Part shown: in pieces, positions 52,853 through 60,340 of the stretch
How positions within the stretch are numbered: the stretch's first letter is position 1
Layout: each line of letters starts with the position of its first letter
Assembly: GCF_000292915.1 (NCBI RefSeq)
Contig: NC_018514.1
Span: 1,116,001-1,180,000 of the forward strand
From: Burkholderia cepacia GG4
GTDB lineage: Bacteria > Pseudomonadota > Gammaproteobacteria > Burkholderiales > Burkholderiaceae
Direction of reading: 5' to 3'
DNA length: 64,000 bases
The notes under the pieces: model-generated
The model's database searches: none
The model's input: the letters and a program-made list of their open reading frames with translations, nothing else
Told to the model about the DNA's origin: nothing
Translations under genes and position numbers: made by a program

Positions 52853-53065
52853 CGCGATGAGCGCGAGGCCGGCGCGCACGCCGCGGCCGGCCATTTTCGC
52901 AACGGCTGCCCTCCTCGGTCAGCCGGACCGGCCCCGCCCCCGCTCAACGTCAAACACCGTCAATCCCGAGCGCAGAAGCCCTTTTTCCCCTCTGAACATT
53001 CCACGCCGCCCGCCGACCAATGGCATCATATGGGCCTACGTCAGTCACCGATACGCCCCCATATC

Positions 53066-54367
53066 ATGTCGAATCTCATCGTCCACGGCGGCACCCCGCT
53101 GCGCGGGGACATCAAGCCGTCCGCGAACAAGAACGCCGTCCTGCCGATCCTGTGCGCCACCCTGTTGACCGATCAGCCGCTGCGCCTCGTCGGCGTGCCG
53201 GACATCACCGACGTGCGCAAGATCCTCGACATCTTCCGCACGCTCGGCAGCGACGTGTCGGTCGACTTCGCAACGGGCATTCTCGAACTCCACCATCGCA
53301 ACACGAAATTCGATCCTGCCGTCCACCGGCTGCCCGAAGCGATGCGCTCGTCGATCATGCTGATTCCGCCGCTGCTCGCACGCTTCGGTGTCGCGCGCCT
53401 CGAGAACGACGTGAAGGGCTGCACGCTGGGCGTGCGCGAAATCGATCCGCACGTCGAAGTGTTCGAGCGCTTCGGCGCGCACATCCAGCGCACGCCGGAT
53501 TCGCTGATCGTCCGTGCCGATGGCCCGCTGACGGCCAACGATCACTGGCTCGACTACGCGTCGGTGACGACCACCGAGAACTTCGCGCTGTGCGCGACGG
53601 TAGCGAGCGGCACGTCCACGCTGATGAACGCGGCATCCGAGCCGCACGTGCAGGAGTTCTGCCAGTTCCTCGCGATGATCGGCGTCGCGATCGAGGGCAT
53701 CGGCACGTCGCGCCTCTGCGTGACCGGCGGCGCGCGCCTCGGCGGCGGCGAATTCCGCTTCGCCGAGGATTTCCATGAAATCGCGACGTTCCTTGCGCTG
53801 GGCGCGATCACGGGCGGCGACATCACGGTGCGCAATTCGTCGCCGGAGCATTTCCCGCTGATCGACCGCACGTTCGCGAAGTTCGGCGTGACCGTCACGC
53901 ACCGCGACGGCTGGTCCCGCGCGGAACGCGATGGCCCGCTGCGCGTGCGCCGGCCGTTCACGCAGAACATCCTGACCAAGGTCGAAGCCGCACCGTGGCC
54001 GTACCTGCCGGTCGACCTGCTGCCGATCTTCATCGCGCTCGGCGTGCGCGCGGAAGGCAGCGCGATGTTCTGGAACAAGGTCTACGACGGCGCGCTCGGC
54101 TGGTCCGGCGAGCTGTCGAAATTCGGCGCGCACGTGCTGCTGTCCGATCCGCACCGGTTGATCACGTTCGGCGGGCTGCAACTGACACCGGCACGCGTCG
54201 AAAGCCCGTACATCATCCGCGTCGCGATCGCGCTGCTGATGGTGGCCGCGAGCATCGAAGGCCGCTCGGAAATCATGAACGCGCTGCCGATCCGCCGCGC
54301 GCATCCGCATTTCGTCGAAAACCTGCGTTCGGTCGGCGCGAACGTCGAGTGGACGACCGGCGAGTAA
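53066..54367 (+). CDS. MurA-like UDP-GlcNAc enolpyruvyl transferase paralogue
   Basis: 433 residues from the ATG at 53066; no strong ribosome site was seen and an ATG at 53030 would extend it. EPSP/MurA fold with SANKNAVLP (Lys-Asn pair), PEAMRSSIMLIPPLLARFG, the Cys loop KGCTLGVREID and WPYLPVDLLPIF, matching active-site Lys, Arg, Cys and Asp of MurA. Other MurA blocks differ: the ENRF motif reads FWNKVYDG, and the DRGY motif region reads IRRAHPHF. It is thus a diverged paralogue; the housekeeping murA is expected elsewhere. Its substrate may not be UDP-GlcNAc. Confidence 0.88.
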   Translation: MSNLIVHGGTPLRGDIKPSANKNAVLPILCATLLTDQPLRLVGVPDITDVRKILDIFRTLGSDVSVDFATGILELHHRNTKFDPAVHRLPEAMRSSIMLIPPLLARFGVARLENDVKGCTLGVREIDPHVEVFERFGAHIQRTPDSLIVRADGPLTANDHWLDYASVTTTENFALCATVASGTSTLMNAASEPHVQEFCQFLAMIGVAIEGIGTSRLCVTGGARLGGGEFRFAEDFHEIATFLALGAITGGDITVRNSSPEHFPLIDRTFAKFGVTVTHRDGWSRAERDGPLRVRRPFTQNILTKVEAAPWPYLPVDLLPIFIALGVRAEGSAMFWNKVYDGALGWSGELSKFGAHVLLSDPHRLITFGGLQLTPARVESPYIIRVAIALLMVAASIEGRSEIMNALPIRRAHPHFVENLRSVGANVEWTTGE

Positions 54368-56247: not shown

Positions 56248-58548
56248 TCACCCGATCCGCCACCACCTCGGCAGCAGATCGCGCACTTCCCGCCGCCGGT
56301 AACGATCGTCGATCAGATGCACGACGCCCTCGTCGTGTTCGGTGCGAATCACCCGCCCGGCCGCCTGCACGACCTTCTGCAAGCCCGGATACAGATACAT
56401 GTAGTCGTACCCGTTGCCGAAGCGCACGTCCATCGCGCGCCGCATCTGCTCGTTGACGTCGTTGACCTGCGGCAGCCCGAGCGTCGCGATGAACGCGCCG
56501 ATCAGCCGCTCGCCGACCAGGTCCACGCCCTCCGAGAACGCACCACCCAGCACCGCGAAGCCGACACCGCGCCCGCCCGCGTCGAAGCGTGCGAGAAAGG
56601 CATCGCGCTCGCTTTCGGCCATGCCGGGGGCCTGTGCCCACACCGGCACGTCCGGATGGCGCGTCTGCATCAGCGCGACGACGCGTCCGAGATAATCGAA
56701 GCTGCTGAGAAAACCGAGGTAGTTGCCGGGTCGCGTCGCGTACTGCGCGGCGATCAGGTCCGCGATCGGTTCGAGCGAGCGATCGCGGTCGCGCCAGCGC
56801 GTCGATACGTGGCTCGCGACGCGCACGGTCAGCTGCTCGGCACGGAACGGCCCGTCGACGTCGAGCCAGCCCGTATCGCCTGGCAGCCCCAGCGTGTCGC
56901 GATAGAAATGGAACGGGCTCAGCGTGCCGGAAAACAGCACGGTCGCGCGCGCGGCTTCGTAGCGCGGCGCGAGAAAGCCGGCTGGAATCACGTTGCGCAC
57001 GCACAGCGTCGACTGGATACGGCGCCGGCGGCCGGCCGGCGCGACGCCGTCGAGCCCCGACTGGCGCGGCAGCGGCTCGCCGTGCAGCGTCGCATCGAAG
57101 ATCGACGCGCTGTCGAATGCGTCGGCGAGCACGCCGAACTGGATCGCCTCGAAATGAAAGCGCAGCAGCGCGTCGCCGTTCGCGCGCGGTGCATCGGTCA
57201 GGTGTTCGCCGATCGCCGCGACCAGGTTCTGCACGGCCGACACGATCGGGCCCGGAATCTCCGGGTAGGCCGCGTAGCGCTCGGCCTGCGCTCGATTGAC
57301 CGTGCCCCACGCGCGCGCGAGCCGGTCGAACGCCTTGCGCAACGCCGCCGGCGCGGCCTCGCGCGCGGCGGCGAATGCGAACGGGTCGAGCGATGCGCTG
57401 TACATCTTGCGCGCGCGATCGAGCAGGTTGTGCGCCTCGTCGACGAGCACGCCGACGCGCCACTGATTCTGCTGCGCGAGCGTGTGCAGCATCGCGCTGC
57501 CGTCGTAGTAGTAGTTGTAGTCGCCGATCACCATGTCGGACCAGCGCGCGAGTTCCTGTGCGAGGTAGTACGGGCAGACGTCGTGCGCGAGCGCGGCCGT
57601 ACGGACGGTCTCCCGATCGAGCAGCCCGGCGCCGATCGCCGCGTCGCGCGCGGCCGGCAGCCGGTCGTAGAAGCCTTGCGCGAGCGGGCACGATTCGCCG
57701 TGACACGCGCTGTCCGGATGCTCGCACGCCTTGTCGCGCGCGACGAGCTCCAGCACGCGCAGCGGCAGCGCCGGCGTGCCGGCGCCGAGCGTGGTGGCCG
57801 CTTCGAGCGCGAGCGCGCGTCCGGGCGTCTTCGCGGTCAGGAAGAACACATGATCGAGCTCGCCCTCGCCGCACGCCTTCAGCAGCGGGAAGACCGTGCC
57901 GAGCGTCTTGCCGATGCCGGTCGGCGCCTGCGCCATCAGGCAGCGCTCGTCGCGCGCCGCCCGATACACGGAAACCGCCAGCTCGCGCTGCCCGCTGCGG
58001 AACTGCCCGTGCGGAAACGTCAGCGCACGCAGCGCGGCGTCGCGGGCCGTGCGATGTGCGGTCTCGCGCTCGGCCCAGCCGACGAAGCATGCGCACTGTT
58101 CGGCGAAGAATGCGGCGAGCGCGCTCGCGCCCAGCGTTTCCGTCAGCACGGTCTCGCGCTCGGACACGATGTCGAAGTACACGAGCGCGACGTCGATTTC
58201 CGTGAGGGCGCGCGCGTCGCACATCAGATGTGCATAGATCTTCGCCTGCGCCCAGTGCAGCGCGCGGTGATTGGCCGGCATCGCGTCGAGGCTGCCGCGA
58301 TAGGTCTTGATTTCCTCGAGCCGGTTCGCGACCGGATCGTAGCCGTCGGCGCGCCCGCGCACGGTGAGCGTGCCCCACGTGCCGGTCAGCGCGATCTCGG
58401 TCTCGTAGCGCGCGCCGCGATTCGAGGTAACGGCGCCGTGGCCCGCGATGCCTTCGAGCGCGGTCGGCGCGGGCGTGAAACGCAGGTCGAGATCGCCGCG
58501 TCGCGCGGTGAACTCGCACATCGCCCGCACCGCGACGACATAGCTCAT
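56248..58548 (-). CDS. XPD/DinG-type Fe-S DNA helicase with N-terminal PD-(D/E)XK nuclease domain
   Basis: 766 residues from the ATG at 58548, which overlaps the preceding gene by four bases. Residues 1-170 look like a RecB/Cas4-type nuclease: Asp68 in GRADGYD, Glu79-Ile-Lys81 in LEEIKT and Gln101-x3-Tyr105 in WAQAKIYAHL. The helicase has Walker A APTGIGKT near 208-215, four cluster cysteines (275, 282, 287, 325) as in XPD/FANCJ, and VDEAHNL near 369-375. Helicase C-terminal blocks include FSGTLSPF, GAFSEGVDL and QAAGRVIRTEHDEGVVHLID. It should unwind and cut DNA repair intermediates. It is operonic with a FAN1-like nuclease under a LexA-type box. The organisation is reminiscent of Dna2-like nuclease-helicase fusions. 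Confidence 0.92.
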   Translation of the reverse strand: MSYVVAVRAMCEFTARRGDLDLRFTPAPTALEGIAGHGAVTSNRGARYETEIALTGTWGTLTVRGRADGYDPVANRLEEIKTYRGSLDAMPANHRALHWAQAKIYAHLMCDARALTEIDVALVYFDIVSERETVLTETLGASALAAFFAEQCACFVGWAERETAHRTARDAALRALTFPHGQFRSGQRELAVSVYRAARDERCLMAQAPTGIGKTLGTVFPLLKACGEGELDHVFFLTAKTPGRALALEAATTLGAGTPALPLRVLELVARDKACEHPDSACHGESCPLAQGFYDRLPAARDAAIGAGLLDRETVRTAALAHDVCPYYLAQELARWSDMVIGDYNYYYDGSAMLHTLAQQNQWRVGVLVDEAHNLLDRARKMYSASLDPFAFAAAREAAPAALRKAFDRLARAWGTVNRAQAERYAAYPEIPGPIVSAVQNLVAAIGEHLTDAPRANGDALLRFHFEAIQFGVLADAFDSASIFDATLHGEPLPRQSGLDGVAPAGRRRRIQSTLCVRNVIPAGFLAPRYEAARATVLFSGTLSPFHFYRDTLGLPGDTGWLDVDGPFRAEQLTVRVASHVSTRWRDRDRSLEPIADLIAAQYATRPGNYLGFLSSFDYLGRVVALMQTRHPDVPVWAQAPGMAESERDAFLARFDAGGRGVGFAVLGGAFSEGVDLVGERLIGAFIATLGLPQVNDVNEQMRRAMDVRFGNGYDYMYLYPGLQKVVQAAGRVIRTEHDEGVVHLIDDRYRRREVRDLLPRWWRIG

Positions 58549-60239
58549 GCGGACAGCCCCGCCGCTTCGGCCTGCTCGACGTTCGCGCCTGCCCATTCGA
58601 CATCGACCACGCGCACCGGAATGCCGTGCGCGACGCAATACGCGAGCCAGCGCGTCTGGTTGTCCTGCAGCCGGTCGCCGGGGCCCTTCACCTCGATCAG
58701 CTCGTAGCGACGCTCGCCGGGCCAGAACCGGACGAGATCGGGCAGCCCCGAGCGGTTGCTGCGAATATCCGCGAGCAGGCGCGTGAACCACAGCCGCAGA
58801 TGCTCGGCCGGCAGGCATGCCAGCGCCTCGTCGAGCAGTTCGTCGGTCAGCACGCCCCAGAACACGAACGGCGACTGCAGCCCCGCCTTCGTCGCGTAGT
58901 GGCGGCGGATCGTGTCGCGATACGCGCCCGAGTCGAGTTGCGCGAAACAGGCAGCGAACGCATCCGTGCGGCGTAGCGCGAAATCGGGCGCGTGCAGGTC
59001 GGCCGGGCCGCGCTGGAACGGGTGAAAGAACGCGCCGGGCACGGCCGCGAACACGGGCTCCCAGCACAGCAGTCCGAACAGCGAATTGATCAGCGTGTTC
59101 TCGACGTAATGAACCGGCGCGCCGGGCTGCGCAAGATGGTCGCGCACGGCGAATTCGACGCTGACGAACGCTGCGGGCCGCACGAGCACGAGCGTTTCGC
59201 GCGGCACGCCTGGCGCGGCGGTGGCACGTTCGACTCGCTGCCCGAGACGGCGCTGCAAGCGCGGCAGCATCCGCTCGACGCGCTGACGCTCCTCGTCGCT
59301 TTCGAAGCCGCCGCGCGCATCGAGTGCCAGCGCGAGCGCGTCGTCGTCGCGTCCACCGCGCTCGAGCACGCGAATACGCCGATGACGGCTGCCCGGCCAC
59401 GCGCTGCGCGCATACGCGTCGAGCGCGGCGGCCCAGTCGGCGCGGCGCTCGCAGGTCTGCCCGAGCGTGAACAGCAGCTTCGCGCGGCGCGTCGCGAGCC
59501 ACGGCTGCGCGCAGCCCACCGCGTCGATCGCGCGCAGCAGTTCGTCGAACGGCAGGTCGTCCGGCCATGCGTCCAGCGCTTCGCGGCAGGTCTGCAGCGC
59601 AAGATACGCATCGACGTCGGCGCGCTGCTGGAACGCGCGCGACGACGGCGCGAACGGCACGCTTTCGTACTGGAACACGCCGAGATCGGCGAGCACGAAT
59701 TCGCTCCAGTCCTGATGGAGATTGCCGAAGAACATCAGCCGCAGCCGGTCGCATAGCGCGCCAACCGTCACGCGCAGCACGCGATCGCCGGCCTGCTCGC
59801 CCCATGCGTCGAGCGCTTGCGCAACGTCGTGTGCGGGCCGCAACCGTTCGAGCCATTCGGGCTTGCGCTCGCCGGCGTGCGCGGCGAGCGACGGGAACAT
59901 AGTCAGCAGGTCGGCCTTGGTCGACAGCGCGAACAGCTCGTCGAGCGTGAGCGCGGGCGCCTGATCGACCCAGCCGAGTTCGACGAGCGGCGCGGCCGCG
60001 TCGAGCGTGCCGCCGATTTCGTCGTACACGAGCTTGCTCGCGCGGAAATCGCACCCGTTGCGCATCAGCATCCGCACGAGCAACGCGCGCGCCGCCTGCG
60101 GCAGCCGCGCGAAATCCCGCAAAAATGCGTGTTCGCGCTCGTCGAGCAGGTCGTCGTAACGCTCGCCGAGCCAGGCTAGCGCACGTTCGAAATTGGTCAG
60201 GTAGTAAAACGCCGGGGGCGTCGGCGATGCAGGCGTCAC
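58545..60239 (-). CDS. FAN1-like VRR-NUC domain nuclease
   Basis: 564 residues. The N-terminal part has FAN1-like helical features (RDFARLPQAARALLVRMLMR, RLRPAHDVAQALDAWGEQ) and a TPR-like middle (ALDAYARSAWPGSRHRRIRV). The C-terminal VRR-NUC domain carries the catalytic set: Asp501 in SGLPDLVRF, Glu516 and Lys518 in ELIEVKGPGDRL, and Gln528 in DNQTRWL. FAN1 unhooks interstrand crosslinks by cutting flaps in steps of about three bases; the bacterial homologue from Pseudomonas acts on similar DNA. A perfect LexA-type box precedes it by 12 bases. Confidence 0.93.
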   Translation of the reverse strand: MTPASPTPPAFYYLTNFERALAWLGERYDDLLDEREHAFLRDFARLPQAARALLVRMLMRNGCDFRASKLVYDEIGGTLDAAAPLVELGWVDQAPALTLDELFALSTKADLLTMFPSLAAHAGERKPEWLERLRPAHDVAQALDAWGEQAGDRVLRVTVGALCDRLRLMFFGNLHQDWSEFVLADLGVFQYESVPFAPSSRAFQQRADVDAYLALQTCREALDAWPDDLPFDELLRAIDAVGCAQPWLATRRAKLLFTLGQTCERRADWAAALDAYARSAWPGSRHRRIRVLERGGRDDDALALALDARGGFESDEERQRVERMLPRLQRRLGQRVERATAAPGVPRETLVLVRPAAFVSVEFAVRDHLAQPGAPVHYVENTLINSLFGLLCWEPVFAAVPGAFFHPFQRGPADLHAPDFALRRTDAFAACFAQLDSGAYRDTIRRHYATKAGLQSPFVFWGVLTDELLDEALACLPAEHLRLWFTRLLADIRSNRSGLPDLVRFWPGERRYELIEVKGPGDRLQDNQTRWLAYCVAHGIPVRVVDVEWAGANVEQAEAAGLSA

Positions 60240-60251
60240 GAGAATCGATCA

Positions 60252-60267
60252 CTGTACGTTTGTACAG
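60252..60267 (-). promoter_or_regulatory. LexA (SOS) box of the FAN1-like/helicase operon
   Basis: CTGTACGTTTGTACAG on the plus strand, CTGTACAAACGTACAG toward the operon: a perfect CTGT-N8-ACAG. It begins 12 bases before the FAN1-like ATG. A TATGAT-like -10 lies just upstream (60274-60279), so bound LexA would block transcription start. Confidence 0.8.
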
Positions 60268-60340
60268 GTTCGAATCATATCAAATGTGCCGAGAAATGCC
60301 GCACGCGGCAGCGCCGGCCGGTAGGCCGCACCGGCCCCGA

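Follow-up and report, generated by a model that had tools for sequence, protein, structure and literature searches.

Bacterial FAN1 nucleases have been described through structures and in vitro activity, and we know of no cellular role for them. The closest described systems are PaFAN1, the FAN1 of Pseudomonas aeruginosa, and the EndoDinG subgroup of DinG-like helicases (Bdellovibrio type, PMC11981726). According to PMC12796719 and the work it cites, PaFAN1 is the product of PA1865 and the protein of Protein Data Bank (PDB) entry 4r89, and it unhooks interstrand crosslinks. The present study concerns a stretch of 64,000 nucleotides from Burkholderia cepacia GG4 (contig NC_018514.1, positions 1,116,001 to 1,180,000; hereafter the window), in which a FAN1 gene lies behind a putative LexA (SOS) box and overlaps a gene for a nuclease-helicase. 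It is likely that the two genes form a DNA-repair operon that is repressed by LexA, is opened by DNA damage and serves against crosslinks or branched forks. Such a conserved SOS operon would place bacterial FAN1 in a cellular context, next to a partner protein and under an inducing signal.

On the minus strand of the window the order is box, FAN1 gene, helicase gene (Table 1). An earlier, sequence-only reading had placed a perfect CTGT-N8-ACAG box 12 bases ahead of a VRR-NUC, FAN1-like gene joined to a helicase gene by a 4-base overlap, and the window sequence bears this out: the box is exact and at that distance, the overlap is ATGA at 58548, and the first protein carries FAN1_HTH, FANC_SAP and VRR_NUC domains in that order, all above their Pfam cut-offs. 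Immediately 5' of the box, 45 divergent relatives share the consensus TTTGnTATsAT, which points to a probable extended -10 element, and a promoter scan upstream of fan1 returned no -35/-10 pair that passed and no sigma-70 promoter with both hexamers. The open reading frame at 56248..60252 was rejected as a gene, being an open frame that simply continues through FAN1.

Table 1. Features of the fan1 and nuclease-helicase locus, numbered from the first base of the window
Feature	Position	Strand	Sequence or gene ends	Basis
Extended -10 promoter element, probable	60274..60284	-	TTTGATATGAT	Sequence and consensus of relatives; predicted role
LexA (SOS) box CTGT-N8-ACAG, putative	60252..60267	.	CTGTACAAACGTACAG (minus strand, 60267..60252)	Pattern match, conservation, same form as lexA boxes
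fan1, helix-turn-helix + SAP + VRR-NUC nuclease, 564 amino acids	58545..60239	-	GTG start at 60239, stop end at 58545	Pfam domains and PaFAN1 alignment
EndoDinG-type nuclease-helicase, 766 amino acids	56248..58548	-	ATG start at 58548, stop end at 56248	ATGA overlap with fan1, 4 bases

The FAN1 protein matches PaFAN1 (PDB 4r89, 5y7g) with 618 bits across residues 3-549, nearly full length, and its D501, E516 and K518 align with D507, E522 and K524 of PaFAN1, residues of the PD...ExK nuclease type that we take to be catalytic. Because the two proteins are such close kin, a role in crosslink repair is suggested for the window protein as well. The second protein has DEAD_2 and Helicase_C_2 domains, a four-cysteine (CCCC) Fe-S motif with an XPD helicase core and, at its N terminus, a Cas4/RecB-like PD-(D/E)XK nuclease domain with H, E, D, E and K residues; two incomplete helicases were left out of the helicase alignment, and few rows of the VIA-align table cover residues 1-169. 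The sequence-only reading had likened this protein to FANCJ/XPD-type helicases, a comparison that holds for the helicase core but not for the whole protein, which has a nuclease domain of its own and fits the EndoDinG subgroup. To our knowledge FANCJ has no Cas4-like domain. No fusion of FAN1 with the helicase was present among the matches listed (120 of the 7997 proteins scored, with lengths between 707 and 793 amino acids).

The gene pair and its box are kept in relatives. In a Burkholderia-group set made up of the best 80 of 286 related stretches from one scan, the helicase adjoins FAN1 at all 80 loci and starts within ATGA at 74 and within GTGA at six, with the FAN1 stop lying inside this overlap in 79 of the 80. 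Absence of the box from relatives that share the operon had been named beforehand as an outcome that would speak against SOS control; instead, an exact box was found within 250 nucleotides upstream at 73 of the 80 loci, compared with 0 or 1 for 11 permuted half-sites, and in genus g208, to which a close PaFAN1 relative belongs, every one of the 25 genomes carries either CTGT-N8-ACAG or CTGT-N8-CCAG. At 45 divergent loci with an exact box, conservation is 0.93 for the box spacer but 0.63 and 0.53 for the flanking DNA. The spacer is thus conserved although the gene upstream varies, MipA having been found there at just 27 of the 80 loci, and this was counted in favour of the LexA-controlled operon. 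The seven loci without an exact box are of several kinds: L042 has no upstream DNA, L046 retains the right half alone, and at L071 and L078 no such box was found in the 250 nucleotides upstream. At L056 an IS1595-family element (L056:2917-3975, with 21-bp perfect inverted ends) interrupts the box, which, to judge from the DNA on either side of the element, was intact before insertion, while the contigs of L082 and L086 start in similar IS1595-like DNA at the same point. Because the L086 piece is about 77% identical, there were probably at least two insertions at the same operator.

Beyond this group, FAN1_HTH was found in 7 of 185 genomes of the class and 55 of 398 genomes of the phylum. Boxes were scored up to 200 nucleotides upstream of 60 FAN1 loci from 59 genomes (the window's own left out), with starts placed by the HTH match. 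CTGT-N8-(A/C)CAG is present at 27 loci, GAAC-N7-GAAC (the alpha box) at five and neither at 28; distal control windows had no pattern in 58, and 240 in-gene windows had no canonical box, two alpha boxes and one CTGG-N8-(A/C)CAG. The helicase follows FAN1 in ten families (G423 excepted), and in ten other FAN1 families the stretch fetched around the gene showed no helicase. Nine of the helicase-bearing families have the canonical form at 22 of 36 loci, compared with none for 11 permuted half-sites. In family f140 it occurs at four of six loci, and the other two have CTGTATA-N5-TACAC. The alpha box is present at 5/5 loci of families f203 and f206, against 0 for 11 permutations, and a sixth locus, L262, has it also. 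These two families would be alphaproteobacteria, judging from their lexA box type and from the alpha box at a Bradyrhizobium japonicum FAN1 gene (L236). Genome G213 of family f203 has two FAN1 loci, L172 and L173, both with the alpha-type LexA box. All four of the long FAN1 proteins that were scanned (about eight others lay outside the scan) have a fused C-terminal RNase_T exonuclease (L172:957-3116, L171:992-3157, L182:1010-3301, L190:999-3158), and no helicase was found near these genes in the fetched stretch. The two alpha-type fusions have an alpha box, and L190 and L182 have an exact CTGT-N8-ACAG at about -38 and -141.

The form of the box was also compared with that at each genome's own lexA, using 30 lexA promoters and FAN1/lexA tallies counted by hand. 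Where lexA has an ACAG or CCAG box, which is so in 17 genomes, FAN1 has one likewise in 11; among nine non-alpha genomes without a canonical lexA box, FAN1 has a box in two. GAAC-N7-GAAC is present at both genes in 4/4 alpha-type genomes and at neither gene in the other 26. Family f178 lacks a box at seven of eight FAN1 loci and at six of the seven lexA promoters read, and the CCAG form seen in g208 is the form of the lexA boxes in the three genomes tested. Across classes, the kind of box at FAN1 tends to agree with the one at lexA of the same genome.

Within the B. cepacia genome the box by itself is weak evidence and is not above chance. The window has one exact match where 0.23 are expected, 22 of 100 shuffled windows have at least one, and the 24 exact matches in the genome equal the 25 of a reversed control, so that counting exact boxes was discarded as a proof. 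These counts would favour an accidental match or the operator of another repressor, but such an origin is highly improbable: the stricter CTGTA-N6-TACAG occurs 10 times in the genome against one in the control, the box is conserved where permuted half-sites are not, and its type tends to change with that of lexA. It is the conservation across species that puts the box far above chance. In this genome lexA itself is preceded by two exact CTGT-N8-ACAG boxes, and other boxes lie ahead of recA, a radical-SAM gene and two DUF2471-type genes. PMC3323433 assigns genes to the LexA regulon by a box position of -300..+50 relative to the start and by its recurrence in at least three species. Here the box lies within that range of the start, is kept in at least three species and has the same form as the box ahead of the genome's own lexA, a comparison with the position and species parts of that rule, its score threshold aside. 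The genome's other Helicase_C_2 gene was considered as the SOS-boxed one and set aside, having no exact box; its best match is a one-mismatch CCGT-N8-ACAG 134 nucleotides 5' of the open frame, whose start codon is provisional. The two DUF2471-type genes (L228:1582-1959 and L226:1589-1993) each stand behind a strict LexA-type box; one is a DUF2471 gene, and the other has a match that falls just short of the cut-off (24.3 of 25 bits). Another strict box of the same genome (L229:1560-1575) lies about 350 bases 5' of the gene for a Rep3-type replication initiator.

The proposed mechanism is as follows. LexA would occupy the box, which lies just 3' of the extended -10 element and overlaps the presumed start of transcription. 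Upon damage, RecA would trigger LexA cleavage, and a single coupled transcript would then yield both FAN1 and the EndoDinG nuclease-helicase. The former would cut near 5' flaps and unhook interstrand crosslinks, while the XPD-type motor would run 5' to 3' and open the DNA for trimming by the Cas4-like domain; the likely substrates would be interstrand crosslinks as well as forks that are blocked or branched.

How closely the two proteins work together is less certain. With the helicase counted at E 1e-60, the 398 phylum genomes include 55 with FAN1, 43 with the helicase and 36 with both, so that the helicase occurs in 36/55 genomes with FAN1 compared with 7/343 without it (Fisher p 3e-30, relatedness ignored). 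Among 200 Burkholderiales the numbers are 11/11 and 7/189, the FAN1 count leaving out three weaker FAN1_HTH matches that fell short of the Pfam cut-off. The two proteins also diverge together: Mantel r is 0.929 over 41 chosen pairs, a value reached by none of 2000 permutations, and r is 0.785 between families, in a set without G423, G227 and family f53 and with eight chosen named loci added. A possible, still tentative extension is that FAN1 and the Cas4-XPD nuclease-helicase assemble into a single physical complex that unhooks crosslinks, is under LexA in several lineages, each with its own operator, and corresponds in bacteria to the FAN1/FANCJ branch of Fanconi repair; without the helicase, FAN1 could be fused to RNase_T and often still be SOS-boxed. 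It is also possible, if somewhat doubtful, that both genes are LexA-regulated and act separately, with operon linkage giving shared induction only: FAN1 would then serve flaps and crosslinks, and EndoDinG would serve blocked forks, R-loops or recombination ends. Exact boxes at helicases whose sequence record holds no FAN1 match fit such separate action (3/3 examined: Cupriavidus sp. EM10, C. campinensis, Caballeronia), as does the exact GAAC-N4-GTTC box of the Bacillota helicases in Listeria and Paenibacillus (two of five matches examined, three Legionella matches being outside the box count). A literature search and the text of one paper gave no support for Listeria lmo0157 as a published LexA target. 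Additionally, FAN1 genes without the helicase retain alpha boxes, and in genome G423, where the pair is split, FAN1 and the helicase are each preceded by an exact box. Against separate action stand the strong co-occurrence, the conserved 4-base overlap and the correlated divergence, though shared ancestry alone could give the last of these.

Several observations weigh against a LexA-controlled FAN1-helicase operon. FAN1 has no box in six of the 17 genomes with a canonical lexA box (G529, G349, G450, G247, G263, G255), and 28 of the 60 loci have neither canonical nor alpha box, one of them, L187, with just 21 nucleotides of upstream DNA. In the Vibrionaceae-like family f179, FAN1 has neither box nor helicase at 6/6 loci, and a Vibrio FAN1 locus that was checked has no box. 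The helicase is also found without FAN1, and so the two proteins need not act together. Ten of 12 lone or split Burkholderiales helicases were examined (G399 and G552 left out): five are at two or more mismatches from the box and G921 at one, with three exact (G423, G429, G501) and G890 carrying CTGG-N8-CCAG.

A role in defence was considered as well, in which the pair would destroy incoming phage or plasmid DNA, the helicase being related to the DinG protein found in type IV CRISPR loci. The helicase does match the PADLOC typeIV_DinG profile with 374.8 bits, but this is the sole defence signal, and PADLOC gave no match on five neighbouring open reading frames (csf genes and CRISPR arrays were not searched genome-wide). 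The defence-system reading was therefore rejected as quite improbable. Elsewhere in the window, which belongs to the second large contig, a gene for an EPSP-synthase-family protein lies at 53030-54367 near an IclR regulator.

The LexA-controlled operon may also bear on P. aeruginosa. PMC12796719 reports PA1865 as up under ultraviolet C (UV-C) and ciprofloxacin and down under hydrogen peroxide, lists PA1866 beside it among UV-C-responsive genes, and assigns neither gene to the known LexA, Prt or Alp regulon. In genome G580, FAN1 aligns with PaFAN1 over 558 residues with the first 53 in common, an exact box, CTGTATGCATGAACAG, stands at the FAN1 gene start, and the aligned helicase region starts 13 nucleotides past the FAN1 stop. 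Provided that translation truly begins at the first residue of 4r89, codons 1-4 are the last 12 bases of this box, and the protein sequence of PaFAN1 thus fits the presence of such a box in P. aeruginosa. Because of the gene arrangement in G580, PA1866 would be the helicase, and a LexA-box operon may explain the UV-C induction of PA1865 and PA1866. LexA regulation of the helicase was probably already foreseen by PMC3323433, whose available text predicted in 2012 putative LexA sites ahead of beta-Proteobacteria 'Helicase c2' genes, since close relatives of the window helicase in B. vietnamiensis and Burkholderia sp. lig30 bear that name; the same text has no words starting with VRR or nuclease. 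The FAN1-helicase SOS operon, the switch of operator type and the link to PA1865 were not found in the open-access literature searched, supplements aside.

The gene pair offers a model in which crosslink repair by a FAN1-type nuclease together with a helicase of the XPD/FANCJ type could be studied, and it is small and can be deleted. With a putative damage switch kept in many related bacteria, the idea of a bacterial equivalent to human crosslink repair should be readily testable. PaFAN1 is like the window FAN1 in its nearly full-length match and its aligned D, E and K residues; however, the available text of PMC12796719, which places PA1865 outside three damage regulons, mentions neither an operon partner nor a LexA box. 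The same text describes PA1044-PA1045 as likewise a LexA-controlled pair with a DinG helicase; there PA1045 is DinG and PA1044 a hypothetical protein, whereas the FAN1-type gene of P. aeruginosa is PA1865. EndoDinG proteins, as far as the accessible parts of PMC11981726 describe them, and PDB entry 9kqh of Finegoldia magna have the same nuclease residues, Fe-S site and XPD core as the window helicase. A term search of PMC11981726 gave no words starting with VRR or FAN1, and the window gene differs from the EndoDinG described there in being coupled to FAN1 and SOS-boxed. Human FAN1 matches the VRR-NUC region of the window protein at 7e-22 to 4e-20, and human FANCJ/XPD have the XPD-family core in common with the window helicase, but these human genes form no operon and are under no SOS control, unlike what is proposed for the gene pair of B. 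cepacia.

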